From NCBI GenBank assembly GCA_002712765.1, contig PAUP01000038.1, positions 1 through 51,304 of the forward strand: a stretch of DNA of 51,304 bases, written 5' to 3'. The notes beneath the pieces are model-generated. The model did no database searches. It had not been told where the DNA came from and worked only from the letters and a program-made list of their open reading frames with translations. Position numbers and translations under genes: made by a program. Below are positions 1,062-49,886 of the stretch, one piece after another (positions within the stretch are counted from its first letter, which is position 1; each line of letters opens with the position of its first letter). Origin of the DNA: Cytophagaceae bacterium (lineage in GTDB: Bacteria > Bacteroidota > Bacteroidia > Flavobacteriales > Flavobacteriaceae).

Positions 1062-1075
1062 GCTTTCGCGAAAGC
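1062..1075. repeat. Iterated palindrome GCTTTCGCGAAAGC, copy 1 (intergenic)
   Basis: Perfect 14-bp palindrome between the M1 peptidase stop and tatA. One of ten exact copies in the window (see also 9981, 11325, 14402, 18624, 21150, 34897, 40989, 42305, 49032). No poly-T tract follows, so it is not a simple terminator. Confidence 0.9.
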
Positions 1076-1129
1076 ATGACCTAAAAGGATTCAAGACCAA
1101 AGCGAGCACATAGCGATTAAGTCTATGAC

Positions 1130-3430
1130 TTATTCCTTGATTTTCTCTTTGAACTTATCAAATTCTCCAAGCTTTTTAGGTTTTGGCCAGCTGTTGTTAT
1201 CGGTATCAATATCTGCTGTTTCCAAATCAGGATCTACCGTAATCTTTACAATCTCCTTATCTGAAGCCAAGGCTTTACTTACCTGAGAATCATTCTTACG
1301 CCAGATTTGTGCAGGATAGGTCACCTTTTCCTTCGTACCATCGGCATATTCATATTCGACAATAATAGGCATCGGGATACCTCCTGGCTTTTCAAAAACA
1401 ATTTGATACAAGTGTTTTGGCGCTTCCATATTGGCACGCTCTTCTGGAGTAAAGTTATCCATCATATACTCCTTTAATGTAGGCGCATTTTCTAGCATAG
1501 ACTTCCCTTTCATGGCAGGGTCAAACTCTTCGCTATCTTCGTCTACTACATATACAGCATCTATAGTACTTGGATCTGTAATACCATAACGAGCCAATAA
1601 CTCTTTACCTTCTTTGGTAGCTTTGTCTGTAACATAGTATGATTTTACCTCTTTCACTCCGATATCAACATACTCTGTACTGTAAAACCATCCTCTCCAG
1701 TACCAATCCAAATCTACAGCCGATGCATCCTCCATGGTGCGGAAGAAATCATCTGGGGTTGGGTGTTTAAACATCCAGCGCTGTGCATAGGTTTTAAAAG
1801 CATGATCAAATAATTCTGGTCCCATTACCGTCTCTCTTAAAATGTTAAGCGCTGTAGCGGGCTTACCATAAGCGTTTGCCCCTAGGCTAAACGCATTTTC
1901 AGGATTGGACATTATAGGCGCGATACGCTCTTGATTACCTTTCATATAAGGAACAATCTTAGATGGCGCTCCTCTTCGTGAAGGGTATTTTTCATTGGGC
2001 GCTATGGCCGAAGGATATTTCTCTCCAAACTCCTGCTCGGTGAGGTATTGCATAAAGGTATCTAATCCTTCATCCATCCAGCCCCACTGACGCTCGTCAC
2101 TATTTACAATCATTGGGAAATAGTTGTGTCCTACCTCGTGAATTATCACAGAGATCATCCCGTATTTTACACGATCACTATAGGTGCCGTCTTCATTAGG
2201 ACGCCCGTAGTTCCAACAAATCATTGGATACTCCATCCCTTGTCCTTTGGCGTGTACAGAAATAGCCTTAGGATAAGGATAGTTAAAGGTAAACTTTGAA
2301 TAGGTATCAAGCGTTTGAACAACGGCTTTAGTCGAATACTCTTCCCATAATGGATTTCCTTCTGGTGGATAAATCGAAATCGCCATCACATTGCGCTCCG
2401 GAAAACGAACAGCCTGAGCATCCATAATATAACGTCTAGAAGAAGTAAAGGCAAAATCACGTACATTCTCGGCGCGTAGCTTCCACGTTTTAGAACTTCT
2501 TGACTTTCCTGCCGCTATTTGCTCGGCTTCTGCTTGTGTTCTAATGATAACAGGCTTGTCAAAAGACTTTTGAGCTTGCTCCCAGCGTTTGTACTCTTCT
2601 TTGCTGTAAACGTCTTTTAGGTTAACGATCTCTCCAGTTCCGTCGAGAAGATGGTCTGCAGGAACAGTGATGTCTACCTCATAATCTCCAAAGGGTAACG
2701 CAAATTCTCCATTACCCCAAAACTGATAGTTTTGCCAGCCTTCCACATCGTTGTATACCGCCATTCTCGGGAAAAATTGAGCAATGATATATCCTCTGTT
2801 TCCATCGGCATAAGTTTCATACCCAGAACGCGCGCGGTTTACCGTGTGATCTGGTATGTTGTAATTCCAACGAATAGTAAATGCATAGGTATCGCCTGCT
2901 TTTAAAGGCTCGGCCATATCGATGCGCATCATAGTCCAGTTAATCGTGTACTTAAGTGGCTTCCCATCTTTAGACACCTCGGTAATTTTGAATCCACCTT
3001 CAAAAGGAGCCCCCATATATTGACCAACAAAACCACCGGTTTGAGCTACAGGCGAAATCCCACTGCCATTTTTGTCTTTGGCTGGAGAATCTGGTGCTCT
3101 TACATTTTGATCTAATTGTACCCATAGGTATTCTAGATCATCTGGTGAATTATTGGTATAGGTAATTTTTTCGACGCCTGTAATGGTTTGAAGATCATCG
3201 TTGAGATCGATTTTCATTTCATAATCGGCGGTGTTTTGGTAATACGCATGACCAGGGGCGCCCGAAGCCGTACGGTATTGGTTTGGCGTAGACATATCGG
3301 TATAAAGCTGACGAAATTTATTGACATTTTCATGTCCTCCTGGACGCTCTTCGGTGTCAGTCTCCTGCGCAAAGGCTGTCATACCAAAGAAAGTAAGCAC
3401 AGCAAAGCAGGCAATTTTAATAGGATTCAT
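1130..3430 (-). CDS. Secreted M1-family zinc metallopeptidase
   Basis: A 766-residue gluzincin. A signal peptide ends near residue 21 (TAFAQ). The catalytic HEVGHN begins at H431, with zinc ligands H431 and H435 and the third ligand E454, which is the exact HExxH-18-E spacing of M1 aminopeptidases. The N-terminal half is the beta-rich domain typical of the family. It probably acts as a periplasmic or surface aminopeptidase feeding on peptides. The DUF6702 gene lies 61 bp upstream, and four carboxypeptidase-regulatory-like paralogues precede that, all on the same strand. Confidence 0.9.
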   Translation of the reverse strand: MNPIKIACFAVLTFFGMTAFAQETDTEERPGGHENVNKFRQLYTDMSTPNQYRTASGAPGHAYYQNTADYEMKIDLNDDLQTITGVEKITYTNNSPDDLEYLWVQLDQNVRAPDSPAKDKNGSGISPVAQTGGFVGQYMGAPFEGGFKITEVSKDGKPLKYTINWTMMRIDMAEPLKAGDTYAFTIRWNYNIPDHTVNRARSGYETYADGNRGYIIAQFFPRMAVYNDVEGWQNYQFWGNGEFALPFGDYEVDITVPADHLLDGTGEIVNLKDVYSKEEYKRWEQAQKSFDKPVIIRTQAEAEQIAAGKSRSSKTWKLRAENVRDFAFTSSRRYIMDAQAVRFPERNVMAISIYPPEGNPLWEEYSTKAVVQTLDTYSKFTFNYPYPKAISVHAKGQGMEYPMICWNYGRPNEDGTYSDRVKYGMISVIIHEVGHNYFPMIVNSDERQWGWMDEGLDTFMQYLTEQEFGEKYPSAIAPNEKYPSRRGAPSKIVPYMKGNQERIAPIMSNPENAFSLGANAYGKPATALNILRETVMGPELFDHAFKTYAQRWMFKHPTPDDFFRTMEDASAVDLDWYWRGWFYSTEYVDIGVKEVKSYYVTDKATKEGKELLARYGITDPSTIDAVYVVDEDSEEFDPAMKGKSMLENAPTLKEYMMDNFTPEERANMEAPKHLYQIVFEKPGGIPMPIIVEYEYADGTKEKVTYPAQIWRKNDSQVSKALASDKEIVKITVDPDLETADIDTDNNSWPKPKKLGEFDKFKEKIKE

Positions 3431-3491
3431 AAGTTGTTTTTGAATTTAATTTAAAGGCTAAAAATAGGTATTCAGATCGGCTTTTGTGAAA

Positions 3492-3992
3492 TTATTCTGA
3501 AAAGTTTAACACGGCTTTGGCATTTCCATTTTCGAGTAATAAACTCTTCTTTTTTCCATAAATTTCGGTGTGCATCATGTTTTTTTGCTCAGGAAAAAGA
3601 TCCATAAGCAAGGTGTTCTCTATGATCAAATTTTCGACCTTTGCTATCCCTTCGATTTCTGAGTACACCACCACATAATCATCTTCATATTCCTTTCCCA
3701 AGACAGTTAGCCTTTGTTTCTGGCCATTCAAAGTAATTTCCAATTTGGCCTGCATGTATTTTTCGAGATAACGATCTAGTAAGGCTTGATCTGCTGTAGC
3801 ATCAACGATGATAGCGCTGTCATATCGCTCTTGAAGTACATCTTCCAAATCATCGTAAAACAATCGGGTAATCATTTGAAGCGAAGCCGCCTTTTCATTG
3901 TAGGCCAAGTCGGTGACACTGAGATAGTATTTATGTGCTGTTGCAGCGAGTAGTAGTGGAGCAAACAGACACAAGAGCATTACTTTTTTCAT
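3492..3992 (-). CDS. DUF6702 family secreted protein
   Basis: A 166-residue protein with a signal peptide (residues 1 to about 18) and an early HKYYLSVTDL segment followed by an acidic FYDDLEDVL stretch, as I recall for DUF6702. Members sit next to M1 peptidases in many flavobacteria, as here. No catalytic motif is visible. It is probably periplasmic; whether it is a chaperone or partner of the peptidase is only inferred from linkage. The short leader to the next gene upstream carries a spaced palindrome at 4004-4020. Confidence 0.75.
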   Translation of the reverse strand: MKKVMLLCLFAPLLLAATAHKYYLSVTDLAYNEKAASLQMITRLFYDDLEDVLQERYDSAIIVDATADQALLDRYLEKYMQAKLEITLNGQKQRLTVLGKEYEDDYVVVYSEIEGIAKVENLIIENTLLMDLFPEQKNMMHTEIYGKKKSLLLENGNAKAVLNFSE

Positions 3993-4003
3993 AGGGTATA
4001 GAT

Positions 4004-4020
4004 TTTCGCTTAAAGCGAAA
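4004..4020. repeat. Spaced palindrome TTTCGCTT-A-AAGCGAAA
   Basis: Two 8-bp arms around one central base, in the 72-bp gap between the DUF6702 gene and the first paralogue. The same arms recur at 33094-33110, and a longer-spaced relative at 38791-38811. The half-site TTTCGC is shared with the 14-bp iterated palindrome. Confidence 0.8.
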
Positions 4021-4064
4021 TAATAATTTTGATTTACATCGTTCTTATTTCAAAAAATGTGCCG

Positions 4065-4844
4065 CTAATCTTCTTCCCTTAGGCTATTGTATTGTTTTGA
4101 CTTTTGCATCATAAAATCAAGCAAACCTAAAGCATCACCTTGATCGACATAATTTTTGGCAGTTTCATCCTCGAAGACATAGTATACAAAATCTTCGATG
4201 CGTTCTTTGTCGATATTGAGCTCTTTCATATACAAGGTATCCGAAAATTGATATCGGGTGCGTTGGACCTTTTGTTCAAACCTACTTACAGCAATGTGTT
4301 TTTTGAGCATCTTAAGTCGTCCTGTAATCGCGTTGATTAAACCGTCTAGTGGTATGCCTGACCCACTGGTGACAGCCGTGTAATAGCGACGTTCTTCGAC
4401 GGTGCGTTTTGGAGCAGTATTGCGCGGCAGCCCTAAGTCTTCGGGATATAACTGAGGCTGGCCCTTGGTAAGGGTAGCATCTTTAGATAAGTTTCCAGAA
4501 AGATCGATATTACTTATTTCGACCTCTTGTAGCTGATTGATTTTAGGGATGAGATAAAGCGAAATTCGCTTGCGGTTAAACATGGTCTGATTGACCACAA
4601 ATTGCCGAGACTCATATTGAATAGCACTGATATTCACAGTGTCATTTACACTTACCTCCAGCTCAAAGGTACCGTCTGTTCTTGTAGTAGTACCTTTTCG
4701 TTTGCTCAAATTTACCACATTGAGCGACGATTTATCAATAGTGTCATTGAGCACCTTACCCGCTAACAGGACGGTATCCTGAGCCAGTAGAGCTGTACCC
4801 GTCAAAAGAAACACACTACATATCAATACTATTTTTAGCTTCAT
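4065..4844 (-). CDS. Carboxypeptidase-regulatory-like domain protein, paralogue 1
   Basis: A 259-residue secreted protein with a signal peptide ending near residue 21 (LLAQ). Residues about 25-110 form a beta-sandwich of the CarboxypepD_reg type, with the family string NVVNLSKRKGTTTRTDGTF. A linker (LSGNLSKDA) and a helical C-terminal part with a conserved RTRYQFSD motif follow. It is the last of four tandem paralogues. No enzyme residues are evident. The related TonB-plug-adjacent domains suggest a role at the outer membrane, but the function is unknown. Four bases separate it from paralogue 2. Confidence 0.8.
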   Translation of the reverse strand: MKLKIVLICSVFLLTGTALLAQDTVLLAGKVLNDTIDKSSLNVVNLSKRKGTTTRTDGTFELEVSVNDTVNISAIQYESRQFVVNQTMFNRKRISLYLIPKINQLQEVEISNIDLSGNLSKDATLTKGQPQLYPEDLGLPRNTAPKRTVEERRYYTAVTSGSGIPLDGLINAITGRLKMLKKHIAVSRFEQKVQRTRYQFSDTLYMKELNIDKERIEDFVYYVFEDETAKNYVDQGDALGLLDFMMQKSKQYNSLREED

Positions 4845-4848
4845 ACCA

Positions 4849-5688
4849 TCATTTTTTAGGGGTGTGTTTTGACAACTCTTTTTGCTTCAAAGTTATAAAG
4901 GATTTTGATTGATGTTGAAAATACATAAACAAATCTAGCAAGGTGCCTTTTTTAACGTTTTCTCTAGCCTTGTCGTCGCTCCAGGCATAGAAGACAAAAT
5001 CATCAATCCATTCTGGGCGTAGTTGCCATTGCTGTATATAGATGGAGTCAGAAAATAGCGTTCGTATCTTGTCTACCTCGGTCTGAAAATTGGAAACAGC
5101 TATGTGTTTTTTTAATCGATTGGTCTTGCCCGTAATCCCATTTATTACGGCAAGCAGCGGGATATCTAGCCGCATATTGTACCTACCTACCATATCTGGA
5201 CCTCTGGTAGTCGCTGTATAGAGTCGTCGCTCTTCTTTAGTTCTCTTTGAGGCAGTATTGGCAGGTAGATTGGCTCGCTTTGCATCATATACTTTTTTTG
5301 AATCAAATCCTGCCCCATCTCGTAGTAAGCTACCACTTAAAGACAAATCATATATAACAACTTCTTCTAAAGCTGTTACTTTAGGGAGGAGATATAGTGC
5401 TAACTGCGCCCTTTGGAATATGGTATTGGTGATCTTAAACTGTTTGGATTCATACTGTACAGCATTAATCAGAAGTGTATCTCCTTTACTTACATCTATT
5501 TCGAATGCACCAGTGCTAGTGGTGATCACTCCCATTTCTTTATTGAGATTGACAATAGTAATATCAGAAGTACCTAGTGAATCGTTCAGAATTTGACCTT
5601 GTAATACGACCACGGCTCGATCTTGTGCGTTTATGGCTTGCGCACCGCACAAAATAATACCAAACAAAAAACACAAACACCTCATCAA
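4849..5688 (-). CDS. Carboxypeptidase-regulatory-like domain protein, paralogue 2
   Basis: A 279-residue secreted protein with a signal peptide ending near residue 21 (INAQ). It shares the paralogue architecture: a beta-sandwich with GQILNDSLGTSDITIVNL, an LYLLPKVTALEEV segment, LSGSLLRD, a KRTKEERRLYTA linker and a helical tail. It is the longest of the four, with an extra segment around the RYNMRLDIPL stretch and a lysine-rich C-terminus. The start may be either of two adjacent ATGs. One base separates it from paralogue 3, so the genes are certainly co-transcribed. Confidence 0.8.
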   Translation of the reverse strand: MMRCLCFLFGIILCGAQAINAQDRAVVVLQGQILNDSLGTSDITIVNLNKEMGVITTSTGAFEIDVSKGDTLLINAVQYESKQFKITNTIFQRAQLALYLLPKVTALEEVVIYDLSLSGSLLRDGAGFDSKKVYDAKRANLPANTASKRTKEERRLYTATTRGPDMVGRYNMRLDIPLLAVINGITGKTNRLKKHIAVSNFQTEVDKIRTLFSDSIYIQQWQLRPEWIDDFVFYAWSDDKARENVKKGTLLDLFMYFQHQSKSFITLKQKELSKHTPKK

Positions 5689-5689
5689 A

Positions 5690-6487
5690 TTACTGTTTTG
5701 TTTTTTGAAGGGATTGATCTTTCTGCTCTCGGGCTTTTAACCTGAGGTAGATAGGTGCTTTTTCTATAAAAAATTGGAGTAGCGCTATTTTATCATTCGT
5801 ATTAACAGCGTTTTCCCTTAACTCATCTTCAAAACAAAAAAAGACAAAATCGTCTATAAGTGCTTCGGGTATGTGCAAGGTCTCAATGTAGATACTGTCA
5901 TTAAATTTTGCACGATTACGATCTACCTTGGCCTGAAATTGAGCCACTTCAAGATGTTTTTTAAAGCGTTTATAATCCCCATTTAAAAGACTGATCAAGC
6001 TGCCTAAAGCACCTGCGCCACCAGTAACCCCATAAAAGCGCCGCTCTTCTGCAGATCTATAGGGAGCGGTCTTCCCTGGGATACCAAAATCGCTGGCGAG
6101 GTATTGTTTTTGAAGCTCCGTGGTTTTTACATCCTGTTTTAAATTCCCCGAAAGGGAAATGGAAGATAATCGCACCTCATCTAAGGCAGTAATCTTAGGA
6201 ATCATATATAATTGCAGTCGTGCTCTACCAAGGATTGACTCACTAATCACTAAACGTCTTGGCTCGTATTGTACGGCGGTCAAATGCAGTGTATCTCCAA
6301 GACGTACTTCAATTTCAAAGCGTCCTTCTGGTGTGGTAATGGTTCCTTTTTCACGGCTTAGATTAACAATGGTTATACCGCTATTATCTAGCGTGTCATT
6401 GAGAATTTGACCTTTCAAAATAGCCAATTCTTGCCCTTGGGCACTTATAAAAAGTCCCATCAATATGTAACACAGTAAGCGTTTCAA
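5690..6487 (-). CDS. Carboxypeptidase-regulatory-like domain protein, paralogue 3
   Basis: A 265-residue secreted protein with a signal peptide ending near residue 18 (SAQG). It has the same layout as its neighbours: KGQILNDTLDNSGITIVNL early, LYMIPKITALDEV, LSGNLKQD, a YRSAEERRFYG linker and a RAKFNDSIY tail motif. It is closest by eye to paralogues 1 and 2. The glycine-rich linker after the conserved YRSAEERR is shorter than in paralogue 2. No known active site is present. Confidence 0.8.
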   Translation of the reverse strand: MKRLLCYILMGLFISAQGQELAILKGQILNDTLDNSGITIVNLSREKGTITTPEGRFEIEVRLGDTLHLTAVQYEPRRLVISESILGRARLQLYMIPKITALDEVRLSSISLSGNLKQDVKTTELQKQYLASDFGIPGKTAPYRSAEERRFYGVTGGAGALGSLISLLNGDYKRFKKHLEVAQFQAKVDRNRAKFNDSIYIETLHIPEALIDDFVFFCFEDELRENAVNTNDKIALLQFFIEKAPIYLRLKAREQKDQSLQKTKQ

Positions 6488-6490
6488 GAA

Positions 6491-7403: not shown

Positions 7404-7411
7404 CTAAATCT

Positions 7412-9713: not shown

Positions 9714-10432
9714 TGCTCAGAACACTCATTACACTCTTCTTACTATTGCCTGCCGTTCTAACCCTAGTATACAGTCAAGAACGTATTTCAGAGGCACAAT
9801 TATTAGGTCAAGGACAACCCAAACTGATCGAGGGAGAAGGATATCGACTACGACCAGAAGCAGCGCTGGCCTTTGAGCGGATGAAAAAAGCAGCGCTCAA
9901 GGACGGTATTTCCATTAAAGTGGTTTCTTCCTATCGCGATTATGCCCATCAAAATCGTATTTGGGAAAGAAAATATAAACGCTTTCGCGAAAGCGGCCTC
10001 CAACCCAAACAAGCGATAGAAAAAATTATCGCCTATTCTACCATTCCAGGCACTTCAAGACATCATTGGGGTACCGATATCGATTTAATTGATGCGGCTC
10101 CTAAAGTAGACGGAGATGTCTTGGTGGCTTCAAAATTTCATGGCACAGGCCCTTTTTGTAAATTCAAACAATGGATGGATGAGCACGCCAATAGTTTTGG
10201 CTTCTATTTGGTCTATACCGATGTCTTAGACAGAAAAGGATTTAAGTACGAACCTTGGCACTACAGCTATGCCCCCTTATCGATTAACTATCTCAAAGCC
10301 TATAATCGTCTAGATATACAAGGTCGTTTGACCGCGGCTCAACTCATGGGAAGTACTCATTTTACACCCTCATTTGTGAGTGGGTATTTGCAAGAGCATA
10401 TCAACGATATTAATCCTGAGCTTAAAGAGTAA
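9713..10432 (+). CDS. Secreted M15 D-alanyl-D-alanine carboxypeptidase (VanY-like)
   Basis: 239 residues with a signal peptide of about 21 residues. The LAS-type metal site is visible: SRHHWGTDID gives H117 and D124, and PWH gives H183; SSYRDYAHQ is the conserved upstream segment. The family trims peptidoglycan side chains in the periplasm. The start overlaps the preceding stop by one base (TAATG), so it is coupled to the two GNAT genes. An iterated palindrome (9981-9994) codes for R90-F-R-E-S94. Confidence 0.9.
   Translation: MLRTLITLFLLLPAVLTLVYSQERISEAQLLGQGQPKLIEGEGYRLRPEAALAFERMKKAALKDGISIKVVSSYRDYAHQNRIWERKYKRFRESGLQPKQAIEKIIAYSTIPGTSRHHWGTDIDLIDAAPKVDGDVLVASKFHGTGPFCKFKQWMDEHANSFGFYLVYTDVLDRKGFKYEPWHYSYAPLSINYLKAYNRLDIQGRLTAAQLMGSTHFTPSFVSGYLQEHINDINPELKE
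9981..9994. repeat. Iterated palindrome GCTTTCGCGAAAGC, copy 2 (in M15 gene)
   Basis: Exact copy inside the M15 peptidase gene, read in frame as R-F-R-E-S (G at codon position 2). It extends to a 16-bp palindrome with the flanking C and G. Confidence 0.9.
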
Positions 10433-10435
10433 GTT

Positions 10436-11431
10436 TTATAAGGTTTCTATCAACTTTTTTTCGGCAAGAGCTTCTTTAAAATCGGAGCGGCTTTGCAAGG
10501 CCTTTGCAATCCAGCGTTGTGCGTTATCTTTATCCTGCTTATGGCGGTAGATTTGCGCCATTCTAAAATAGGCCCAATCTTTAGGCACCCCATCCTTTAC
10601 CGTATACTGTTCTATATACCGATGCAAACATGCAATACCCTGATCTAACCCTATGCCATATTGCCCTGCAACTTTACCTAATTGATAGTGCAATCTGTTA
10701 TTATCTTGATGTTTTTGTTGAGCTTGCTGTAGGGTAGTGATGGCCTGCTCGGGCTGATTTTGTTTTTCATAATGCTCATAGAGCTTTGTATAACAAGTAA
10801 CAGACCCACCTATAGCCACTGCTTCTTTATAATTGCGTTCGGCTTCTTTGGGTTTATTAGAGTACTCTGCAATATATCCTTTGGCGAGATAACCATCTAC
10901 GGGAGATATTGCCATAAGTTCGTTGGCATAAGTTAAAGCCTTAAACTCGCTTCCGCCTACAATCCCAGGCAACTGCATATAGAGTTCTACTAAGGCCCAA
11001 CGCACCTCGACATGATTTCTATCCAAACGGGCAGCGGTGTGAAAAGCTTCTTTGATATCTCCAATGAGTCCTAGGGCACGTAACTTGTTAATTTCAAGGG
11101 CCTTCATCCCCATAACGCCACCATATTTGTAATGGTAATTAGCCACCTTAGGTTGTAAGGCTACCAATTGCTCGTAATAAGCAATGGCCGTGTCCCACTC
11201 CTTGGCATAACCAGAGATATCACCTAGGTATTCTATGGTTTTAAGATCCTTTGGATGCGCTTTGAGGTACTGTTTAAATAAAGGTGCCGCTTTGGCGTAT
11301 TCCTGATTGTTGTAGTAGGCTTGCGCTTTCGCGAAAGCGTCCATACCCCCATTAAGCTGCTGAGCCTGAGCATTGATCGTTGTAGCACTAAGCCACAAAC
11401 CTAAGACGATTAAAAATATACGATAGTTCAT
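10436..11431 (-). CDS. Secreted TPR-repeat protein
   Basis: 331 residues from the ATG at 11431, chosen over 11464 because it begins a clean signal peptide (MNYRIFLIVLGLWLSA, cut near TTINAQAQ) and because a -7 box lies at 11458-11465. The body is a run of tetratricopeptide repeats (AQAYYNNQEYAKAAPLFKQY, later AEWALVELY-like and YRHKQDKDNAQRWIAKAL units), so it is probably a periplasmic scaffold. The partner is unknown. Its 3' end meets the M15 gene tail to tail with a 3-base gap. An iterated palindrome codes for the A-F-A-K-A just after the signal peptide. Confidence 0.8.
   Translation of the reverse strand: MNYRIFLIVLGLWLSATTINAQAQQLNGGMDAFAKAQAYYNNQEYAKAAPLFKQYLKAHPKDLKTIEYLGDISGYAKEWDTAIAYYEQLVALQPKVANYHYKYGGVMGMKALEINKLRALGLIGDIKEAFHTAARLDRNHVEVRWALVELYMQLPGIVGGSEFKALTYANELMAISPVDGYLAKGYIAEYSNKPKEAERNYKEAVAIGGSVTCYTKLYEHYEKQNQPEQAITTLQQAQQKHQDNNRLHYQLGKVAGQYGIGLDQGIACLHRYIEQYTVKDGVPKDWAYFRMAQIYRHKQDKDNAQRWIAKALQSRSDFKEALAEKKLIETL
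11325..11338. repeat. Iterated palindrome GCTTTCGCGAAAGC, copy 3 (in TPR gene)
   Basis: Exact copy, read on the minus strand as A-F-A-K-A near the N-terminus of the TPR protein. Extends to 16 bp with flanking C/G. Confidence 0.9.
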
Positions 11432-13136: not shown

Positions 13137-14249
13137 CTACAATTGATCGATCACATCGCTAAGACGCGCTGTGATTTCTTCAACACTACCTACACCATCG
13201 ACACCGTGGTACTTATCCTGCTGCTCGTAGAACTCTTTTAAAATAGCCGTTTCGGCATAATATACAGCAATGCGATTACGGATTACGGCCTCATCGGCAT
13301 CATCGGCACGCCCAGAGGTCTTACCGCGCTCAAGTAAGCGTTGTACCAATACCTCATCGTCTACCTCTAGCGCTACCATGGCTGCGATTTCTGTACCCAT
13401 TCCTTCAAGTAGCTCTGCCAAAGATTTTGCCTGAGCCTCAGTACGCGGAAATCCGTCAAAGATAAAACCATTGGCATTAGGGCTTTTTTCTACCTCTGCC
13501 TTAAGCATATCTATAGTTACCGAATCTGGCACTAATTGACCTTTATCCATATAAGACTTGGCAAGGGTGCCAAGCTCGGTACCATTTTTAATATTATATC
13601 TAAAAACATCACCGGTCGAAATGTGAACCAAGTGGTATTTCTCTTTTAAGACTTCAGCTTGTGTACCTTTTCCAGCACCTGGAGGGCCGAACAATACTAA
13701 ATTTTTCATCTGTGCTTGTTTTAATTTGTAAATAGCCGTCAGATTACGGCCCAAACCATTGTAATCGAGACCAAAACCTACTACAAAATCATTAGGTATT
13801 TCTAACCCTATAAAATCAATAGCATATGGTTTCTGATAGGCTTGTGGTTTATAGAACAGCGTGGCAATACTAAAGCTTGCTACTTCTTCCTGTTCGAGTA
13901 TTTGGATTATTGTTTCTATTGTGTTTCCGGAATCAACAATGTCTTCTACCACGATGACATCTCTACCTTTGAGTGAGGGCTCTGCGCCCATGACCGTAAA
14001 AACTTCATCTTTTTGTTTTGTCCCGTCATAACTGGCCACTTTTATAAAACTCAATTCGCATTCGCCATCAAATTTTTTGATCAATTCGGCGGCAAAGAGA
14101 AAGGCGCCATTGAGCACGGTCAAAAATACAGGTCGCTGTTGCGCATAACGATCATTTAATCGCACGGCAACACCGTTTACGGCTTGTTGCACCTCAGTTT
14201 TTGAGATACATTTTTCGAATACTAAATCGTGTAATTGGACTGTTTTCAT
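13137..14249 (-). CDS. Hypoxanthine phosphoribosyltransferase-adenylate kinase fusion
   Basis: 370 residues, two complete enzymes in one frame. Residues 1 to about 175 are a purine phosphoribosyltransferase, with the PRPP-binding VEDIVDSGNT at 101-110. From M181 the chain is an adenylate kinase with P-loop GPPGAGKGT (188-196), DGFPRT and the short LID form (ERGKTSGRADD) of about 190 residues. The first makes IMP/GMP from free bases, the second interconverts AMP, ADP and ATP. Met181 could serve as an internal start. A -7 box lies at 14266-14273. The gene diverges from purK. Confidence 0.93.
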   Translation of the reverse strand: MKTVQLHDLVFEKCISKTEVQQAVNGVAVRLNDRYAQQRPVFLTVLNGAFLFAAELIKKFDGECELSFIKVASYDGTKQKDEVFTVMGAEPSLKGRDVIVVEDIVDSGNTIETIIQILEQEEVASFSIATLFYKPQAYQKPYAIDFIGLEIPNDFVVGFGLDYNGLGRNLTAIYKLKQAQMKNLVLFGPPGAGKGTQAEVLKEKYHLVHISTGDVFRYNIKNGTELGTLAKSYMDKGQLVPDSVTIDMLKAEVEKSPNANGFIFDGFPRTEAQAKSLAELLEGMGTEIAAMVALEVDDEVLVQRLLERGKTSGRADDADEAVIRNRIAVYYAETAILKEFYEQQDKYHGVDGVGSVEEITARLSDVIDQL

Positions 14250-14401: not shown

Positions 14402-14415
14402 GCTTTCGCGAAAGC
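14402..14415. repeat. Iterated palindrome GCTTTCGCGAAAGC, copy 4 (purK leader)
   Basis: Exact copy ending 9 bases before the purK ATG at 14425 and downstream of the predicted -7 box, so it would be in the mRNA leader where a hairpin or bound protein could affect translation. Confidence 0.9.
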
Positions 14416-14424
14416 GTGCAACTT

Positions 14425-18410: not shown

Positions 18411-19597
18411 GACATGTATTTGCTGGCTCTCAGCTGGTGAAAATGCAACATTTGCCCTGTAAAATTGGCCTGGCGGTGTGCTGACAGTCGTGCTTGTATT
18501 TGCAGCATTTTATCGATTAAGGCTGGAGCATGTCTTTGTTTTTGAAAACGTGTATTGACAATTTCTACACCTTGTCTTTGTGCCTCGAGCCATAATTGAG
18601 GGCTGGTGTATAATGCTATGGCCGCTTTCGCGAAAGCTAAAGGCTCATCTTCTACCCTACCACACCAGCGGGTCGTATCATACATGCCCTCGGCACCTAT
18701 ACTCGTGGTGACTGAAGGTGTCCCGCATTGCATGGCATCGATCAGTTTACCTTTTAAACCTGCACCAAAACGCAGTGGCGCTAATAATACTTTGGCATGT
18801 TGTATGACTTTGTGAGCATCAGGTGCCCTCCCTTTGATCAAAAAACCTTGCGCCTCATTGTGTAATTGGAAGACCTTATCTGAAGGATAGGCTCCGTAAA
18901 TTTCTACACTAGCCTTGGGTAAAGCCTTTCGGATAATGGGCCAAATCGCTTTTTTTAGATAAAGGGTAGCATCCCAGTTAGGCGGATGTAAAAAATTACC
19001 AATACTAATAAAATGCGCTCTATCTTCAAATGAAATCAACGGGGAAGCTGGGGAAGAAACTAAAAAAGGAACATAATGTAACAAGGCCAAAGGGACTTGA
19101 AATTGATGTTGTAAGAGTTCGATCTCATACTCAGAAATCATCAAGGTGAGATCACACCTATAGATGCTCGCTATTTCTCTTTTGGCCACATCGCTAAAAA
19201 GATCTTGAGTAGTACAGTTTCTGTCTTGGGTAACTGCCGTGGCTCTAGCCTTGCGCAGACAGTGCAAATCTTCGGTGTCCAAAACTCTCATAGCATTAGG
19301 GCAGCGATCATATACCCGCCATCCGTATTGCTCTTCGGTGATGTAGCGATCAAAAAGCACTATATCTGGTTGTAAGTCCTGGACAAAAACATCAAAGCTA
19401 TCGTCGTTGAGTTGTATGGCTTGCAGCTTGATCCCGAGCGTGCCTAGATCAAAGGCATGTTCACTGGGCTTTGCGGCCGTAGCAAAAGTAAGTTCCCACC
19501 CCGCCTTATCAAAAGCTTCTAAGAGTTGCAACATCCTACTTCCTGCAGCTGTTGATCGAGGTTCTACCCATGTACTACCAATGATGATCAACTTCAT
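18380..19597 (-). CDS. GT4-type glycosyltransferase
   Basis: 405 residues with a GT-B layout: an N-terminal Rossmann-like half beginning KLIIIGSTWVEPRSTAAGSR, and a C-terminal half with KVLLAPLRFGAGLKGKLIDA and a TPSVTTSIGAEGM segment, the usual nucleotide-sugar binding region of GT4 enzymes. It probably adds a sugar to a cell-surface glycan; the substrate is unknown and no other glycan genes are nearby. An iterated palindrome (18624-18637) encodes A-F-A-K-A. The start codon gives a normal N-terminus. Confidence 0.82.
   Translation of the reverse strand: MKLIIIGSTWVEPRSTAAGSRMLQLLEAFDKAGWELTFATAAKPSEHAFDLGTLGIKLQAIQLNDDSFDVFVQDLQPDIVLFDRYITEEQYGWRVYDRCPNAMRVLDTEDLHCLRKARATAVTQDRNCTTQDLFSDVAKREIASIYRCDLTLMISEYEIELLQHQFQVPLALLHYVPFLVSSPASPLISFEDRAHFISIGNFLHPPNWDATLYLKKAIWPIIRKALPKASVEIYGAYPSDKVFQLHNEAQGFLIKGRAPDAHKVIQHAKVLLAPLRFGAGLKGKLIDAMQCGTPSVTTSIGAEGMYDTTRWCGRVEDEPLAFAKAAIALYTSPQLWLEAQRQGVEIVNTRFQKQRHAPALIDKMLQIQARLSAHRQANFTGQMLHFHQLRASKYMSKWIALKNKQ
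18624..18637. repeat. Iterated palindrome GCTTTCGCGAAAGC, copy 5 (in glycosyltransferase gene)
   Basis: Exact copy inside the glycosyltransferase gene, read on the minus strand as A-F-A-K-A, the same frame as copies 3 and 10. Confidence 0.9.
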
Positions 19598-20922: not shown

Positions 20923-22119
20923 TCACCAGCGATTCCAATGACAATTTTTATAGGAGGCTTTATGAGTGTGTACTTCTCTGTGGCGTATTAACAAATGAGT
21001 CTCCCCCATCTCCTTTGATCTAAACCCCAACAAATGTAAAACTGGTCTACGTAAAAATCGGGCAATTCGTTTATCTACTAATAATGCATTAGCACTATCT
21101 TTTGAGCGTTTTACACCGGGGAGATACTTTAGTAATTGCTCAAGTTTTAGCTTTCGCGAAAGCGTAGACAGCTTCAAAAAAAAAGGCGCCACGGGTCGTA
21201 TCAGAAAAAATCCATCGGCGCCTTGATCCTGATACAAGGGCATGAATAATTGGGTATTTGTGGTTGCGTGTAATGGTCTACCGTTTAACTGGGCCAAATG
21301 TGTTCCCTTTTCTACCGTTTGAAAGTTCATAAACCCAGGATTCATCTTGAATTGATCTGAGGACGCAATGGCCTGGCGATGAAATATTTCGAAAATCTGT
21401 TGTTGATCATTGAGCCTGTCATGATAGGTCTTAAAATCGATATGATGTTTGGAAATAGCGCCTGCATAGACCATTGACAAATAGATAAAGGCCATGTGAT
21501 TATCTACCGCGCCACCGTCTTGATGCTGCCCTCCTTCAAAACCAAAGGATACATATCCCAATTGATTTAAATAGCTCAACAGCGGCCCGTCGAGATACTC
21601 TTCAACCCCTAAAATCATGGGGATAGGATATTGCTGGGTAAAGCGTCTATTGATCAAACTATCATTTACCGTCATAAAGGGTTTAGTGGGGCCTGAAGTA
21701 GTATGCAGATCAAAGAAATAGACTGGGCCTTTTTCCTTTTTTAAAATTTTACGAAGTTCTCGATATAAAGCGAGCTGTTGTTTTTCATCTTGTGTATGGG
21801 GTATAAAGTCTCCCTTGTCTATGGCATCAATGCGCTGTTGATCCCAAATGCGATTTAAATCTTGCTTTTCATATCTCCTGCCTCGTTCTAAAGCCCACAA
21901 GTGACCTGCCACCCCATATACCGAACCAAATACGGTCGCCTTTGAATTTTCTAAGGCGCCAAAAACGTTGTAAAGCGCCTTAACTCCTGCGGGCTCGTTA
22001 CCATGAATTCCAGCAATAAAAATCAAACAGGGGCCTGAAAATTCCCCTTGTATCTGACCAATAATCCTAGAAAGTGGCATGACTGGCCTCACCATTATAG
22101 AAGCTGGCTTATTGGTCAA
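20923..22119 (-). CDS. Succinylglutamate desuccinylase/aspartoacylase-family zinc deacylase
   Basis: Up to 398 residues; the start may be at 22119, 22095 or 22080. The M14-type site is visible: GIHGNEPAG gives zinc ligands H39 and E42, DLNR (87-90) and DLHTTSG with H139 follow, and GFEGGQHQ supplies the probable catalytic Glu. Family members remove acyl groups from amino acids or small peptides. With the first start it overlaps the upstream ligase-CBS gene by 11 bases. The C-terminal third has no match I know. An iterated palindrome codes for L-S-R-K (21150-21163). Confidence 0.85.
   Translation of the reverse strand: MTNKPASIMVRPVMPLSRIIGQIQGEFSGPCLIFIAGIHGNEPAGVKALYNVFGALENSKATVFGSVYGVAGHLWALERGRRYEKQDLNRIWDQQRIDAIDKGDFIPHTQDEKQQLALYRELRKILKKEKGPVYFFDLHTTSGPTKPFMTVNDSLINRRFTQQYPIPMILGVEEYLDGPLLSYLNQLGYVSFGFEGGQHQDGGAVDNHMAFIYLSMVYAGAISKHHIDFKTYHDRLNDQQQIFEIFHRQAIASSDQFKMNPGFMNFQTVEKGTHLAQLNGRPLHATTNTQLFMPLYQDQGADGFFLIRPVAPFFLKLSTLSRKLKLEQLLKYLPGVKRSKDSANALLVDKRIARFLRRPVLHLLGFRSKEMGETHLLIRHREVHTHKASYKNCHWNRW
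21150..21163. repeat. Iterated palindrome GCTTTCGCGAAAGC, copy 6 (in deacylase gene)
   Basis: Exact copy in the deacylase gene, read as L-S-R-K, the third reading frame. With copies 2, 3, 5 and 10, all three frames are used. Confidence 0.9.
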
Positions 22120-27341: not shown

Positions 27342-27355
27342 GCTTTCGCGAAAAC
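27342..27355. repeat. Iterated palindrome variant GCTTTCGCGAAAAC
   Basis: One base differs from the 14-bp palindrome at the right end. It lies 22 bases upstream of the SDR-like gene start. Confidence 0.7.
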
Positions 27356-34713: not shown

Positions 34714-35034
34714 CTGTTTATCTATTATAGTATACCCAACGATATGTTCTTACAGAACAATACTTGGCTCAACAAATATTCGTCAATATCAAGTAATAAC
34801 CTAATAAAATAGTTTAGTTTATAACAACCCATACACAACGACAACCAGAATTTTGAGCATATATCAGGATACTTGTATATGATGTGGAGAGGGTACGCTT
34901 TCGCGAAAGCCAAAAGCATAGCATCATTACACAAGCTTGAAAGATCGTTCTGCTTCCCATACTATTATACTTGGGCCAAGACTAATACGGCAATGCCGAG
35001 ACGCATATGCTACCCTAAAGGACTGAAAACATTG
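34714..35034. other. 321-bp gap with one iterated palindrome
   Basis: Between the glutaminase start and the amidohydrolase end. It holds the palindrome at 34897-34910; two short overlapping open frames that use the palindrome as A-F-A-K-A on opposite strands have no support. No promoter seen. Confidence 0.5.
34897..34910. repeat. Iterated palindrome GCTTTCGCGAAAGC, copy 7 (intergenic)
   Basis: Exact copy 184 bases upstream of the glutaminase start and 125 bases beyond the amidohydrolase stop. Confidence 0.9.
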
Positions 35035-39536: not shown

Positions 39537-39550
39537 GCTTTCGCGAAAAT
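39537..39550. repeat. Iterated palindrome variant GCTTTCGCGAAAAT
   Basis: Keeps the TTTCGCGAAA core; differs in the last two bases. Sits about 100 bases upstream of the PhnB-like gene. Confidence 0.65.
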
Positions 39551-40988: not shown

Positions 40989-41002
40989 GCTTTCGCGAAA
41001 GC
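40989..41002. repeat. Iterated palindrome GCTTTCGCGAAAGC, copy 8 (intergenic)
   Basis: Exact copy, 46 bases beyond the stop of the DUF4421-like gene; 16 bp with flanking C/G. Confidence 0.9.
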
Positions 41003-42304: not shown

Positions 42305-42318
42305 GCTTTCGCGAAAGC
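42305..42318. repeat. Iterated palindrome GCTTTCGCGAAAGC, copy 9 (intergenic)
   Basis: Exact copy, 6 bases beyond the stop of the cupin gene, between it and the DUF4421-like gene. Could double as a transcript-end hairpin, but there is no T-run on the minus strand. Confidence 0.9.
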
Positions 42319-45746: not shown

Positions 45747-45801
45747 TAGATTTTGATCAAAGTGCGTTGTAAATGTTCTAGGTGGCTCAAGAGCCGCATT
45801 T

Positions 45802-47115
45802 TTAATTAATAATCAGTTTCTTTACCTGACTGCCGTTAGCTTTATTTTTGACCTCAATAAAATAAATACCTGAACTCAAATCTGATAGGTTAAGTATAAG
45901 GCTATCGGGAGCAGTTAGATGGAGTTCTTTTTTTATTTGTCCTAACCGATTTAGAATTCTTAGAGAATTTGGGCTGGAGGCATGATCAAAGTCTATACGT
46001 AGTTGATTACTCGTAGGGTTGGGATATATTTGAAAGAAACTAGCCATTTCTACAGTTGAAATTGACAAGCTATTACAACTAGGAGCAATACCCGATTGTT
46101 GGTTTAAAACACCATTGTCTACATACCAATTTTCCCAGAGCCCGCCCGTGCCCGTTTCCCAGTCATTTAGATCAAAGGTATTTGACCCATCAGGAGTACC
46201 CTTAACAGAATATACTTTTATGGCTTCATTTCCGAGATTCCAATCTAGTGAATTACCCGCTGTACAGTTCTCGGGTAGTACACTTTCTAATTCGCAATTG
46301 GTCTGAATAAAATAGGCGTTGTCATTGTGCGAAGGATATTCTCCATAGACTTTGGCTATACCACTGGTATCGATACAGACGGCTGTATACTCATCACAAG
46401 CAATACCTCTGGCGGCAACACCTTCATCAACCAAAATTCGCGCTAAGAAAACAAGATGTCTTCCTTTTCTGTCTGGATTATCGTAGTGACTATCTGTAAT
46501 AACATCCGATAAAAAGGGATTAGAAATAAATGACATCGAATCTACGGTGACATTGGTATCATAAGGGTCGGATAGCGCGGTCGAGGAAGTAATAGTACCG
46601 TTTTGTGCAGAAAAGTAATAGCCTCCCTGTATAGCCATCCCCGCACTTGTACCCCCTACCACTATATTTCTGGTTGCAATGGCCTCATTAATGAGGCTAT
46701 CAATAGCTGTATTTCTCCAATAGGATATGTAATCCCATTGGTCACCTCCTGCTATCCATATTGCCTCGGCTTGCGCTATTTTTTGATGTATGTAAGTCTC
46801 GTCTGAGGCTGTGGCGTCGTGAAAGACTATGGTCTCAACCGAATTAAGACTCACCCCTAAGCTCGAGTACATATAGTCGTTATATCCATCACTACCCGAT
46901 GTTCTTAGTACAAGTACATCTCCTCCATTTGCTTGTTGCAAAAACCAAGTCATTGCATTGTCATCTTCTGTGGCACCGCCCATTAAGCAGACGCCTCCTG
47001 ATGGTACCGTCATGACATCAGTCGAATTTCCTGTAAAATAAGATGTATAATTTTGACCACATATGGTCGAAATACAACACATAACAATAGAGATCAAAAG
47101 AACAAATTGTTTCAT
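45802..47115 (-). CDS. Secreted cyanophycinase-like S51 peptidase with T9SS sorting domain
   Basis: 437 residues. A signal peptide (to about residue 20, ICGQ), an S51 catalytic domain (about 25-330) and a C-terminal Por/type IX sorting domain (from about FQIYPNPTSNQ to the end, with SSGIYFIEVKNK). The nucleophile elbow is GGTSAGMAIQGG. Cyanophycinases release Asp-Arg dipeptides from cyanophycin; here a secreted enzyme could act on such polymers or on other beta-Asp peptides. It is the second S51 member in the window, with pepE. Confidence 0.9.
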   Translation of the reverse strand: MKQFVLLISIVMCCISTICGQNYTSYFTGNSTDVMTVPSGGVCLMGGATEDDNAMTWFLQQANGGDVLVLRTSGSDGYNDYMYSSLGVSLNSVETIVFHDATASDETYIHQKIAQAEAIWIAGGDQWDYISYWRNTAIDSLINEAIATRNIVVGGTSAGMAIQGGYYFSAQNGTITSSTALSDPYDTNVTVDSMSFISNPFLSDVITDSHYDNPDRKGRHLVFLARILVDEGVAARGIACDEYTAVCIDTSGIAKVYGEYPSHNDNAYFIQTNCELESVLPENCTAGNSLDWNLGNEAIKVYSVKGTPDGSNTFDLNDWETGTGGLWENWYVDNGVLNQQSGIAPSCNSLSISTVEMASFFQIYPNPTSNQLRIDFDHASSPNSLRILNRLGQIKKELHLTAPDSLILNLSDLSSGIYFIEVKNKANGSQVKKLIIN

Positions 47116-47285
47116 ATAACCCTTTTTTTAATAGGCCTGCAACACGCTACCTTTTAATCTATTACAAGCGGCTGTCACAGCCTTTACAAGTATACAAGGA
47201 TAATTGCACAAAGCAAAATAGGCAAATGATTAGATACTTAATGTGTTTTAGCAAAGTGTCAAACTAGGTCGTAAAAAACTATAGC

Positions 47286-48404
47286 TTAGCCACGTTTTGC
47301 AAAGGTAAAGTCTTTTAATTCTTCTCCGTCAAATCTCCACAATAAGCCATAACGCCCACCAAACCATATGTTTCCATCTTTATCTTCAGAAATAGTTTTT
47401 ACATCATTTAGTTGGTCACTGTTCTCAATATCAAAGGGTATAAAGGCTGTACCGTCATAGGTATACACTCCTTTTCGTGCATAACTCGCCACCCAAAGGG
47501 TGCCGTTACTATCTTCCAGAAAAGTAGCCATGGCAATTTGATTGTCTTGATTTGCATCAGGCACGTTTACAAATGTATCATCTTCATATTTGTATATCCC
47601 ACCATTTCGAGTACCTACCCATAGATGCTCTTTTCTATCTATATAAAGGCTAGCAATCATCCCATCACCAAAACCATCTTTTAAAGCGTGATCAATAAAT
47701 CTTCCTTCTGTAAATTGACTGATCCCGCCGTGAGAGAACGAAGAAAACCAAATGTCTCCATCATGGGCTTCAACGATACTCAATATGACATTGTGATGTA
47801 AACTGTCGGGCATAAGCTTGCCTTTTTCTTTTAAATAAGAAGTAAACTTATTTTTATCATACCTATACGCTCCAGCACCATTTGATCCTATCCAAAAATC
47901 TCCTGTTTTATCCTGAATTAGACTCACGACTGCCTTTGGATTAACGATGGGATATACCTGCTCTAGCCAATCAGTCATTACCGTATCTTTAGGAATAGGA
48001 ATGGTTTCAAAGTTGACACCGTTATAGCGACACAAGCCATTTTGGGTGCCAAACCACATCATATCATCACTGTCTTGCAGTATTGCCCAAACTTGATTCC
48101 CACACAGTCCTTCTGCGGTGCTATAATTGGTAAAGTCTGTCCCATCGTATGTAAAAATGCCCTCTTTTGTTGTTGCAAACCACATCATTCCTGAGGCGTC
48201 TAAAAAACCGCTAGTCACTATATCTCCCGAATCATAGGGTGTAGACTGAGGCTCTTTGGCGGTCACATGCGCTACACTATGTTTATCCGTATTTTCACCT
48301 TTTTTTAAAGTGGTATGGATTTTACTTTCGCAGCCAGCGCAAATAAACCCCACCAGTATTACCAAAAAAAAGCTACGTTGTCTCATCATCATATCTTTCT
48401 TCAA
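47286..48404 (-). CDS. Two-component-regulator-propeller lipoprotein
   Basis: 372 residues with a lipoprotein signal (VGFICAGC). Then come about seven repeats of the DGTDFTNYSTAEGL / DDMMWFGTQNGLCRYNG / DIWFSSFSHGGIS / HLWVGTRNGGIYKYEDD type, the Reg_prop motif of hybrid two-component sensors. It lacks the Y_Y_Y, histidine-kinase and regulator domains of those sensors, so it is a stand-alone surface or periplasmic beta-propeller. It may bind a glycan or protein. Confidence 0.85.
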   Translation of the reverse strand: MKKDMMMRQRSFFLVILVGFICAGCESKIHTTLKKGENTDKHSVAHVTAKEPQSTPYDSGDIVTSGFLDASGMMWFATTKEGIFTYDGTDFTNYSTAEGLCGNQVWAILQDSDDMMWFGTQNGLCRYNGVNFETIPIPKDTVMTDWLEQVYPIVNPKAVVSLIQDKTGDFWIGSNGAGAYRYDKNKFTSYLKEKGKLMPDSLHHNVILSIVEAHDGDIWFSSFSHGGISQFTEGRFIDHALKDGFGDGMIASLYIDRKEHLWVGTRNGGIYKYEDDTFVNVPDANQDNQIAMATFLEDSNGTLWVASYARKGVYTYDGTAFIPFDIENSDQLNDVKTISEDKDGNIWFGGRYGLLWRFDGEELKDFTFAKRG

Positions 48405-48503
48405 AACTAAACTAATGCTGTAGTCGTACTGGTTTTCTCATGTAAAAAAACGTAAAAAGAATGTCAATTTTTTAGCTGTTAGGGTCAAATGGGTAGATTC
48501 CAT

Positions 48504-48746
48504 CTATTTGTAATGGTGTAGCCAGAGCACTGTATTTCTGCTTAAATAGAATTGTTTAGGGATCATCGGTCTTCTTACGCATAGGTAAGCCATGATCAAA
48601 ACCGCAATAGGCGTCTCCTTCAGCGTATCATCTACGGCAGTAAAAATCAACAAAGTATTGACCAAGTGTTGGGCATTTTTTTTACCGCTTCCAAGCGATG
48701 ACAAAAACGCTACTTTTTTTATAATTTCTGAGTAATTTTCAGGCAT
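48504..48746 (-). CDS. Doubtful 80-residue ORF at the IS110 left end
   Basis: A minus-strand frame with ATG at 48746, reading PENYSEIIKKVAFLSSLGSG and further hydrophobic stretches (LVNTLLIFTAVDD, AVLIMAYLCVRR). It might be the remnant of a gene cut by the insertion, but no matching part was found on the right side of the element. I do not recognise it; it could also be a chance frame. Confidence 0.25.
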   Translation of the reverse strand: MPENYSEIIKKVAFLSSLGSGKKNAQHLVNTLLIFTAVDDTLKETPIAVLIMAYLCVRRPMIPKQFYLSRNTVLWLHHYK

Positions 48747-48759
48747 AGTACTATAGAAA

Positions 48760-48902
48760 TAATTGAGAGAATTAAGGTTAGCTTAGCCATTGAAGCTTTA
48801 GACTTCGACAACAATGATAATCCTCTCTCATACTATTTGCATGTGGTTTAGAGCTTATGCTAAGATCACAATGTGTAGTATTCATTCACATAACCCTATG
48901 TG
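48760..48902 (+). ncRNA. Putative bridge RNA of the IS110 element
   Basis: Two consecutive interrupted hairpins on the transposase strand. First: TGAGAGA (48764-48770) with TCTCTCA (48824-48830), ATTA with TAAT across a 2-base bulge, and inner CATTG/CAATG (48788-48792, 48812-48816). Second: TACTA/TAGTA (48831-48835, 48876-48880), CATGTG with CACAATG (48840-48845, 48867-48873) and inner AGC/GCT. A third hairpin CACATA-ACCC-TATGTG (48887-48902) precedes the gene. Large internal loops in the first two fit target- and donor-binding loops. Assignment is by hand pairing. Confidence 0.5.
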
Positions 48903-48920
48903 GTTGCTTAATCGATTGCT

Positions 48921-49886
48921 ATGAAAAGGTATACAGAAATAATTGGAGTAGATATCAGTAAGGCCGTCTTTGACAGCTTTGGCCCGCTCTCAGGTCATGC
49001 ACAATTTACCAACTCGGATAATGGTTTTTCCGCTTTCGCGAAAGCGTTACCTAAAGATTCACTAATTGTTTTGGAAGCGACGGGATATTACCATTATCGC
49101 CTCGCTCAATTTTTGGATAAAAAAGGTTTTGCTGTCTCTGTGGTAAACCCACTATCTGTAAAACGATTTTTACAGATGAAACTCGCCAAAATCAAAACAG
49201 ACAAAAGCGATGCCAAGGCCATTTGTGAATATGCACAGATCAACGATGTACCTAAGTATGATGCTGTTAGTCACACAAGGTCAGAATGTTTTCAGCTTTT
49301 TAGATTGTTGGAGAGTTATCAAAAAAAAAGCACAGCCACCAAGAACAAAATACACGGTGAACAAGTACTAGGCATTCCGTCTGCGTTTGTATATCGATCA
49401 CTCCAGCGCGATTTAAAACACCTTGAGAAGGAAATTAAGGCAATCGAGCTACGATTACTACGATTGGTCAAAAAAGAACAACAAGAGCAACTTAGCTTGC
49501 TTACTGGCATACCTGGTATTGGACCTAAAACCGCCTTATTTCTTATCATAGCTACAAATGGTTTTAGTAAGTTTGAACGAGCCAGCCAGTTGTGCAGTTA
49601 TGTGGGTATTACTCCAACAATTAGGACTTCAGGCAGTAGTGTACGGGGAAAAAGTAGAATTAGTAAGATTGGTAATAAGCGATTGCGAAACCTATTGTTT
49701 TTGTGTTCATTTTCGGCTTGTAAACACAATCAATCTTGTAGAGCGCTTTACGAGCGTATCGTGGCCAAGGGCAAGAGTAAAAAACTGGCCTTGATTGCCG
49801 TTGCCAACAAACTACTCAAACAAGCTTTTGCCATCGTGAAATCTGGTAGATCCTATGATGAAAATTTCAGCTCAACATTGGTCTAG
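48921..49886 (+). CDS. IS110-family transposase (bridge-RNA-guided recombinase type)
   Basis: 321 residues, intact. N-terminal DEDD/RuvC-like domain: GVDISKAVFD with D11, VLEATGYYH with E52, and KTDKSDAK with D94 and D97. C-terminal Transposase_20 domain from GIPGIGPKTALFLII on, with the Ser-rich TSGSSVRGKSRISKIGNK where the catalytic serine lies. The gene should be active by length. It contains an iterated palindrome (49032-49045) in the A-F-A-K-A frame. Confidence 0.95.
   Translation: MKRYTEIIGVDISKAVFDSFGPLSGHAQFTNSDNGFSAFAKALPKDSLIVLEATGYYHYRLAQFLDKKGFAVSVVNPLSVKRFLQMKLAKIKTDKSDAKAICEYAQINDVPKYDAVSHTRSECFQLFRLLESYQKKSTATKNKIHGEQVLGIPSAFVYRSLQRDLKHLEKEIKAIELRLLRLVKKEQQEQLSLLTGIPGIGPKTALFLIIATNGFSKFERASQLCSYVGITPTIRTSGSSVRGKSRISKIGNKRLRNLLFLCSFSACKHNQSCRALYERIVAKGKSKKLALIAVANKLLKQAFAIVKSGRSYDENFSSTLV
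49032..49045. repeat. Iterated palindrome GCTTTCGCGAAAGC, copy 10 (in IS110 transposase)
   Basis: Exact copy within the transposase gene, residues A38-F-A-K-A42, in the RuvC-like domain; 16 bp with flanking C/G. Shows the motif also occurs in mobile DNA of this lineage. Confidence 0.9.

Follow-up and report, generated by a model that had tools for sequence, protein, structure and literature searches.

A 14-bp palindrome kept throughout Dokdonia genomes: a sequence-specific DNA site and possible recombination signal

The window analysed in this study is the whole 51,304-nt stretch of contig PAUP01000038.1. It contains ten exact copies of a 14-bp perfect palindrome, GCTTTCGCGAAAGC, and two copies of an asymmetric form, in which GCTTTCGCGAAA is followed by bases other than GC. 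All twelve lie at the coordinates given in an earlier reading made from the letters alone (the sequence-only reading), which had listed ten copies and two end variants. When up to two mismatches are allowed, the window holds 12 matches, against 0.15 in shuffled sequence. The copies are listed here in order.

1062-1075, no strand: exact match to GCTTTCGCGAAAGC, between open reading frames (ORFs)
9981-9994, no strand: exact match, inside a VanY-type carboxypeptidase gene (Pfam), peptide RFRES
11325-11338, no strand: exact match, inside a TPR protein gene (Pfam), peptide AFAKA
14402-14415, no strand: exact match, between an hpt-adk fusion gene and purK (Pfam)
18624-18637, no strand: exact match, inside a glycosyltransferase gene (Pfam), peptide AFAKA
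21150-21163, no strand: exact match, inside an AstE/AspA-type gene (Pfam), peptide TLSRKL
27342-27355, plus strand: asymmetric form, GCTTTCGCGAAA followed by AC, between ORFs; a form frequent in relatives
34897-34910, no strand: exact match, between ORFs
39537-39550, plus strand: asymmetric form, GCTTTCGCGAAA followed by AT, between ORFs
40989-41002, no strand: exact match, between ORFs
42305-42318, no strand: exact match, between ORFs
49032-49045, no strand: exact match, inside a gene, peptide AFAKA

The recount agrees with the earlier division of the exact copies into five within ORFs and five between them. Those within genes are translated as AFAKA three times and as RFRES and TLSRKL once each, and all three frames are used. 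The intergenic status of the copy at 14402 is uncertain, since it adjoins a mechanically called GTG start at 14416 and the true start codon decides. Three of the window copies can be traced into other Dokdonia: the palindrome is exact at four of five aligned loci for the copy at 9981, at one of four for that at 14402 and at two of three for that at 18624.

The window's own genome (G000; 2.77 Mb, 78% complete) has 369 copies of the palindrome and none of a reversed control word. All 18 genomes of the genus Dokdonia contain it, at 369-905 copies per genome. An 800-kb sample of a relative, G395, contains 206 copies, where Markov models of orders 1-5 predict 0.0005-0.0095. This excess removes the concern, raised with the first description, that a genome count might be no higher than composition predicts. 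About one copy is found per 3-4 kb in the sampled Dokdonia relatives, per 5.1 kb in the window and per 7.5 kb in the window's genome. G000, G403 and G410 have about half the site density of most other members of the genus.

The copies are strongly conserved between genomes. In this comparison, from which copies in DNA that could not be aligned were left out, 60 of 61 aligned copies are unchanged between G395 and G409, which are 95.1% identical. By class, 27/27 coding and 33/33 intergenic copies are identical in this pair, against 0.586 and 0.572 of random 14-mers. Copies of G395 are identical in G398 at 19/21 coding and 18/23 intergenic positions (random 0.201 and 0.276), and in G397 at 20/21 and 16/23 (random 0.104 and 0.145). 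When both partners are counted, the shared copies amount to 36/48 for G395 and G398, 43/48 for G398 and G397, and 41/47 for G398 and G399. The four pairwise alignments thus contain 24 non-shared copies (1 + 12 + 5 + 6). Substitutions alone account for 20 of them, and the other four have gaps of 1 or 4 bases in addition; not one of the 24 lies opposite a 14-bp gap. Only 12 events bear on whether a loss is compensated by a gain nearby, and two pairs of them lie less than 2 kb apart.

This comparison of orthologous sites, proposed in the sequence-only reading, therefore finds copies strongly kept and losses that are mostly substitutions. The claim made there that selection acts on the DNA and not on a peptide is borne out by the use of all three frames and by conservation both in genes and between them, and the alternative named there, remnants of one dispersed mobile element, would predict 14-bp gaps, which the non-shared copies lack. 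Together these data show that strong selection, or a corrective process equivalent to it, maintains the palindrome as a sequence-specific DNA site.

Placement was examined in the first 400 kb of G395, which holds 107 copies and in which crude ORFs leave 8.5% intergenic. Intergenic DNA accounts for 59 of these copies, at a density about 13-fold higher, and they occur between neighbouring genes in every orientation. The other 48 are inside ORFs, in frames used 28, 10 and 10 times, AFAKA being encoded 28 times. The widest gaps between copies in this region are formed by two adjacent ORFs, 13.3 and 15.2 kb long (L110-L112, G395:C1 288425-320307), which have a higher GC content and lack the palindrome.

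In each of six sampled genomes, which are not independent since five are Dokdonia, the copies are spaced more evenly than random placement would give (coefficient of variation 0.51-0.72), and pairs less than 1 kb apart number 0-4, against random medians of 5-25. Across forty 20-kb stretches of G395, the 206 copies have a dispersion index of 0.46 (p 0.0017). In the four of these stretches whose GC content is below 0.37, the counts are 4, 2, 1 and 4; the remaining 36 average 5.42. The check on spacing and replichore that had been suggested at the outset thus gives even spacing, and no trend with origin or terminus is visible by eye in 20 spaced stretches of G395 alone.

The element is longer than 14 bp. 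It can be written TTACGCTTTCGCGAAAGCGTAA, with G/T-rich DNA 5' to it on both strands. Across 510 half sites, taken from four Dokdonia genomes, the core is extended by C, A, T and T at -8, -9, -10 and -11 (0.85, 0.65, 0.80 and 0.61, respectively), beyond which a C-poor, G/T-rich zone fades by about -30. Between -12 and -26, the window has a G/T fraction of 0.647 (20 half sites); the value is 0.629-0.649 for five other Dokdonia sets and the pooled loci, and 0.703 for G296, a genome of another genus (g22). Far out, from -48 to -67, the fraction is 0.49-0.57. Words enriched in the flanks are GGG, GGT, GTG, TGTG and GGGT. Depletion of C is alike around intergenic and coding copies, so the coding strand is not the cause of the flank bias. 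In more distant pairs, intergenic flanks outside the core are conserved no more than background (for G395 and G398, 0.68-0.86 against 0.80), which argues that the flanks are held to a composition and not to given bases. The genera have dialects at -9, where G395 has mostly A and G296 has T or C.

Purity was measured in 1.4 Mb of G395 and the related genomes G397-G399, which contain 354 exact, 38 one-mismatch and 79 two-mismatch copies. Among the one-mismatch forms, 25 of 38 are changed in the two outer bases of either end. The commonest two-mismatch form in relatives is GCTTTCGCGAAAAT (29/79), and only one of the 79 keeps the palindrome. Pairing between the flanks beyond ±9 shows no consistent excess over shuffles (±25 reaches z 2.1; ±12, 13 and 16 fall below them). 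The loss of the palindrome in these forms and the lack of consistent pairing both argue that the sequence is read and not a hairpin. The asymmetric form, to which the window variants at 27342 and 39537 belong, is itself frequent: in 1 Mb, TTTCGCGAAA occurs 55 times outside full copies, against 0.7 expected, and four asymmetric copies are common to G395 and G398. With both forms masked, GCTTTCG occurs 53 times, against 64.5 expected. A separate local repeat was seen in L016 (D. pacifica), where a 21-kb stretch has about 41 occurrences of CTTGTGGTC and words overlapping it.

The window can be placed within Dokdonia by its hpt-adk fusion protein, which matches proteins of D. pacifica, D. sinensis and uncultured Dokdonia at 85-88% identity and falls among them in a protein tree. 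The gene (13137-14249) encodes a phosphoribosyltransferase-adenylate kinase fusion, the halves of which match separate neighbouring ORFs in G455 and G651.

Surveys at three taxonomic ranks delimit the spread of the site. Of 395 genomes of the order, 32 contain the palindrome, namely two Dokdonia, G296 with 578 copies, and 29 genomes with 1-16. A looser word, GCTTNCGCGNAAGC, was used for 397 genomes of the family and gave 606, 690 and 629 in g22 genomes, 455 in G575 (genus g273) and at most 21 in every other genome outside Dokdonia. In a survey of 395 genomes of the phylum, those outside the family have at most one copy each. In 11 named genomes, the looser word occurs 575-912 times in four Dokdonia, 188 times in the metagenome-assembled genome of L031, 38 times in L032 and 35 times in L034, and 14 times in Planktosalinus, 8 in Leeuwenhoekiella, once in Christiangramia and not at all in Muricauda. 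The site-rich Flavobacteriaceae besides Dokdonia are therefore two genera, g22 and g273, and the surveyed rest of the phylum is mostly without the site.

In a single-gene tree, G575 groups with Dokdonia, and g22 stands apart with site-poor genera in between (modest support). The site was therefore either gained twice or lost several times. Samples of 61-130 kb from the intermediate genera contain only scattered degenerate copies, which may be decayed remnants or a diverged dialect. A literature search, in which subscription journals were thinly covered, found CTTTCGCGAAAG in none of the papers covered and no description of the motif; TTTCGCGAAA turns up, in the portions of text accessible, only in work on other subjects.

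The palindrome is also present on phages. At least 15 contigs of a viral collection have two or more copies, and 77 of the 120 viral stretches among the matches listed have a GC content of at least 0.45. Phage contigs L221, L170, L156, L248 and L425-L428 each carry at least two copies and show the flank signature seen in chromosomes; the G/T fraction from -12 to -26 is 0.627 in viral contigs with at least two copies, some of which are near duplicates. Ten proteins from five stretches with two or more copies were compared with known families. Those recognized include portal, major head, HNH, terminase, integrase, tape-measure and primase families; one protein resembled a phage family without a known function, and for two there was no match. 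The portal protein of one phage type led to five contigs, four with three copies at corresponding places and the fifth with two. L428 keeps its copies at corresponding places despite differing flanking DNA. A 34-nt consensus gave only weak matches to phages and plasmids (E 0.9-4), and the 20-mer TACGCTTTCGCGAAAGCGTA is present in one viral contig.

Copies also occur on islands in otherwise site-poor Flavobacteriaceae. G322 and G102 carry related islands with the palindrome, 77.7% identical over 5 kb, at the following positions.

G322:C3 20-120 kb and G102:C1 300-340 kb (L126-L132): copper-resistance islands

Their genes encode an AcrB-type pump, an outer-membrane factor, a multicopper oxidase and a metal ATPase. 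A pair of copies 933 bp apart is found in both genomes and again in G479, G500 and G597. The G/T fraction on the G322 island is 0.640. Exact and one-mismatch copies stand at 16:9 in the G322 stretch, against 107:8 in G395 (p 0.0004), as expected if copies without a reader decay; a less pure donor would look alike.

The conserved palindrome points to a DNA-handling signal, and we infer that a trans-acting factor reads it on the DNA and that loss of a site is costly. The chromosome-organising or repair protein suggested in the sequence-only reading is still a candidate for this factor. The motif behaves as a known kind of element, the genome-wide iterated signal, but for no named family are all the defining features seen here. 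Sites of Chi type have a density close to one per 3-4 kb in Escherichia coli; known Chi sites are 5-8 nt long and are read on one strand. The density of the palindrome, its copies on phages and its G/T zones fit, and for this reason we favour an orientation-free recombination or self-DNA signal working like Chi, to which we would assign, on sequence evidence, a probability of about 0.35.

Under such a scheme, an enzyme of the AddAB/RecBCD type, arriving from either side, would unwind and degrade broken DNA, and the site would mark where degradation stops and RecA is loaded. Once resection from one side or the other had reached the site, the G/T-rich DNA lying 5' on both strands would sit on the 3'-ending strand, where RecA filaments would be most stable. 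The reader could be AddAB itself or a separate dimeric protein, and phages of these hosts would carry the site as a means of protecting or recombining their DNA. We put forward more tentatively a wider form of this proposal, in which Bacteroidota would possess a palindromic, orientation-free self-DNA and recombination signal with RecA-favoured G/T flanks on both strands that stays almost invariant at intervals of a few kb, decays in hosts without its reader and is carried by their temperate phages.

The parallel with Chi, drawn in part from PMC1193525, lies in similar density, presence on phages, AddAB-like genes in the genome and G/T-rich DNA on the RecA-loading side. A nuclease of AddAB type (PF12705) was found in 21/21 genomes, and AddB-like and RecB/AddA-like proteins were recognized by NCBIfam at scores below the curated cut-offs. 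RecA filaments are described as dissociating most slowly on TGG repeats (PMC3763553). The even spacing of the copies, their purity (354 exact to 38 one-mismatch) and their conservation (60/61) count in favour of the proposal as well.

Several observations weigh against the Chi-like proposal. The palindrome is at least 14 bp long and needs both halves, whereas Chi is short, asymmetric and strand-biased. Because known Chi sites are read on one strand, single-direction half words should be enriched alone; yet GCTTTCGC occurs 27 times outside full and asymmetric copies, against 17.6 expected, and asymmetric copies divide 23 to 12 by leading strand, which is no significant preference (p 0.09, with replichore limits set by eye). 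Asymmetric copies also have a weaker flank bias (0.557 and 0.584), and reading of a single strand does not explain why the word is palindromic. Genes like AddAB are present in site-poor genera too. The two site-rich lineages do not group in an AddB tree, in which G575 is not firmly placed; transfer of AddB between these lineages was considered and is not seen there. According to PMC3763553, RecA nucleation is not preferential at Chi or in TG-rich DNA, and titles in its reference list attribute the GT-rich islands around Chi in E. coli to codon usage.

Two other kinds of signal must be weighed beside it. The sites known as parS, Noc, SlmA and matS are palindromes of 12-16 bp with dimeric readers; a genome has at most tens of them, positioned according to macrodomain, and those of matS, Noc and SlmA show origin/terminus patterning. 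A site of this sort, at which a dimer would bind every few kb and fold, anchor or guard the nucleoid, is a serious rival, somewhat less probable than the Chi-like signal. It would suit a perfect palindrome of high purity that is evenly spaced, occurs in all gene orientations and needs both halves, and prophages could adapt to it. Against it stand the 369-905 copies, the absence of a visible origin/terminus pattern in G395, and a G-or-T preference over 15 bases that a protein footprint would hardly yield. A second ParB as the reader was rejected, since six of the seven site-rich genomes tested have a single ParB_N match, the window's genome having two. A serious rival too, and almost as probable, is a DNA-uptake signal for natural transformation, comparable with the DNA uptake sequence (DUS) of Neisseria and the uptake signal sequence (USS) of Pasteurellaceae but palindromic, whose copies would be spread and mended by preferential uptake and recombination. 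According to PMC2397512, about 35% of Neisseria DUS lie in genes, their identity is 97% against 85% around them, their spacing is tied to exchange length and they sit in permissive DNA. The present statistics are similar: the palindrome is over-represented genome-wide, mostly intergenic (48/107 copies being in genes), more conserved than its surroundings (60/61 exact at 95% identity) and placed in permissive DNA, with fewer copies in low-GC stretches and genus dialects at -9. Copies on phage contigs would not be expected of an uptake signal, however, and the ratio of exact to one-mismatch copies is 9.3 (354:38), against 2.4 for DUS in the same source.

The remaining explanations are much weaker. 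The sequence-only reading had likened the palindrome to HIP1 (GCGATCGC), and as a genome-wide iterated palindrome, with 206 copies in 800 kb where less than 0.01 was expected, it does behave like HIP1. According to PMC4390886, HIP1 and alternate HIP words are likewise short, numerous, both genic and intergenic and lineage-specific, and their near misses gather at the outer bases, as 25/38 do here. The word is GC-cored, and with both of its forms masked TCGCGA is enriched (104 against 57.2 expected). That the palindrome owes its origin and upkeep to a DNA methylase and a mismatch repair linked to it, the model put forward for cyanobacteria, is nevertheless very unlikely: CGCG is below expectation outside the sites (878 against 1143), and a methylase as driver, also suggested earlier, is disfavoured by the finding that PF01555 and PF00145, the two families searched, both lack a match over cut-off in 7 of 14 site-rich genomes. 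The present element is also 14-22 bp and not 8 bp long, is far sparser than HIP1 and has wide G/T-rich flanks. Least probable of all is a mobile short repeat, RNA hairpin or cruciform (REP/BIME, MITE or terminator), copied around or kept for its structure. Hundreds of dispersed copies, 59/107 of them between genes, could suggest one, as could the gaps of 1 or 4 bases that lie within the core at four of the 24 non-shared copies. Among these 24, all in alignable DNA, none lies opposite a 14-bp gap, and insertion of a mobile element was rejected on that ground. A hairpin or cruciform was rejected because the arms do not co-vary (only 1/79 two-mismatch forms is palindromic) and flank pairing shows no consistent excess, and an intrinsic terminator because 48/107 copies are coding, in all frames, and intergenic ones occur in all orientations. 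The earlier exclusion of terminators and of REP/BIME units is thus upheld.

Few short words are known to be placed and kept genome-wide (Chi, DUS/USS, matS, KOPS and HIP1), and each has either opened chromosome biology or remained a puzzle. To the view from the window can now be added a longer element with G/T-rich 5' flanks, even spacing, a conserved asymmetric form and copies on phages. The Dokdonia word is very clean, with about nine exact copies for each one-mismatch copy, and it is evenly spaced and present in hundreds of copies in 18/18 genomes of the genus, some strains of which are in culture. Whatever its function, it labels DNA from such lineages, for example the copper-resistance island.

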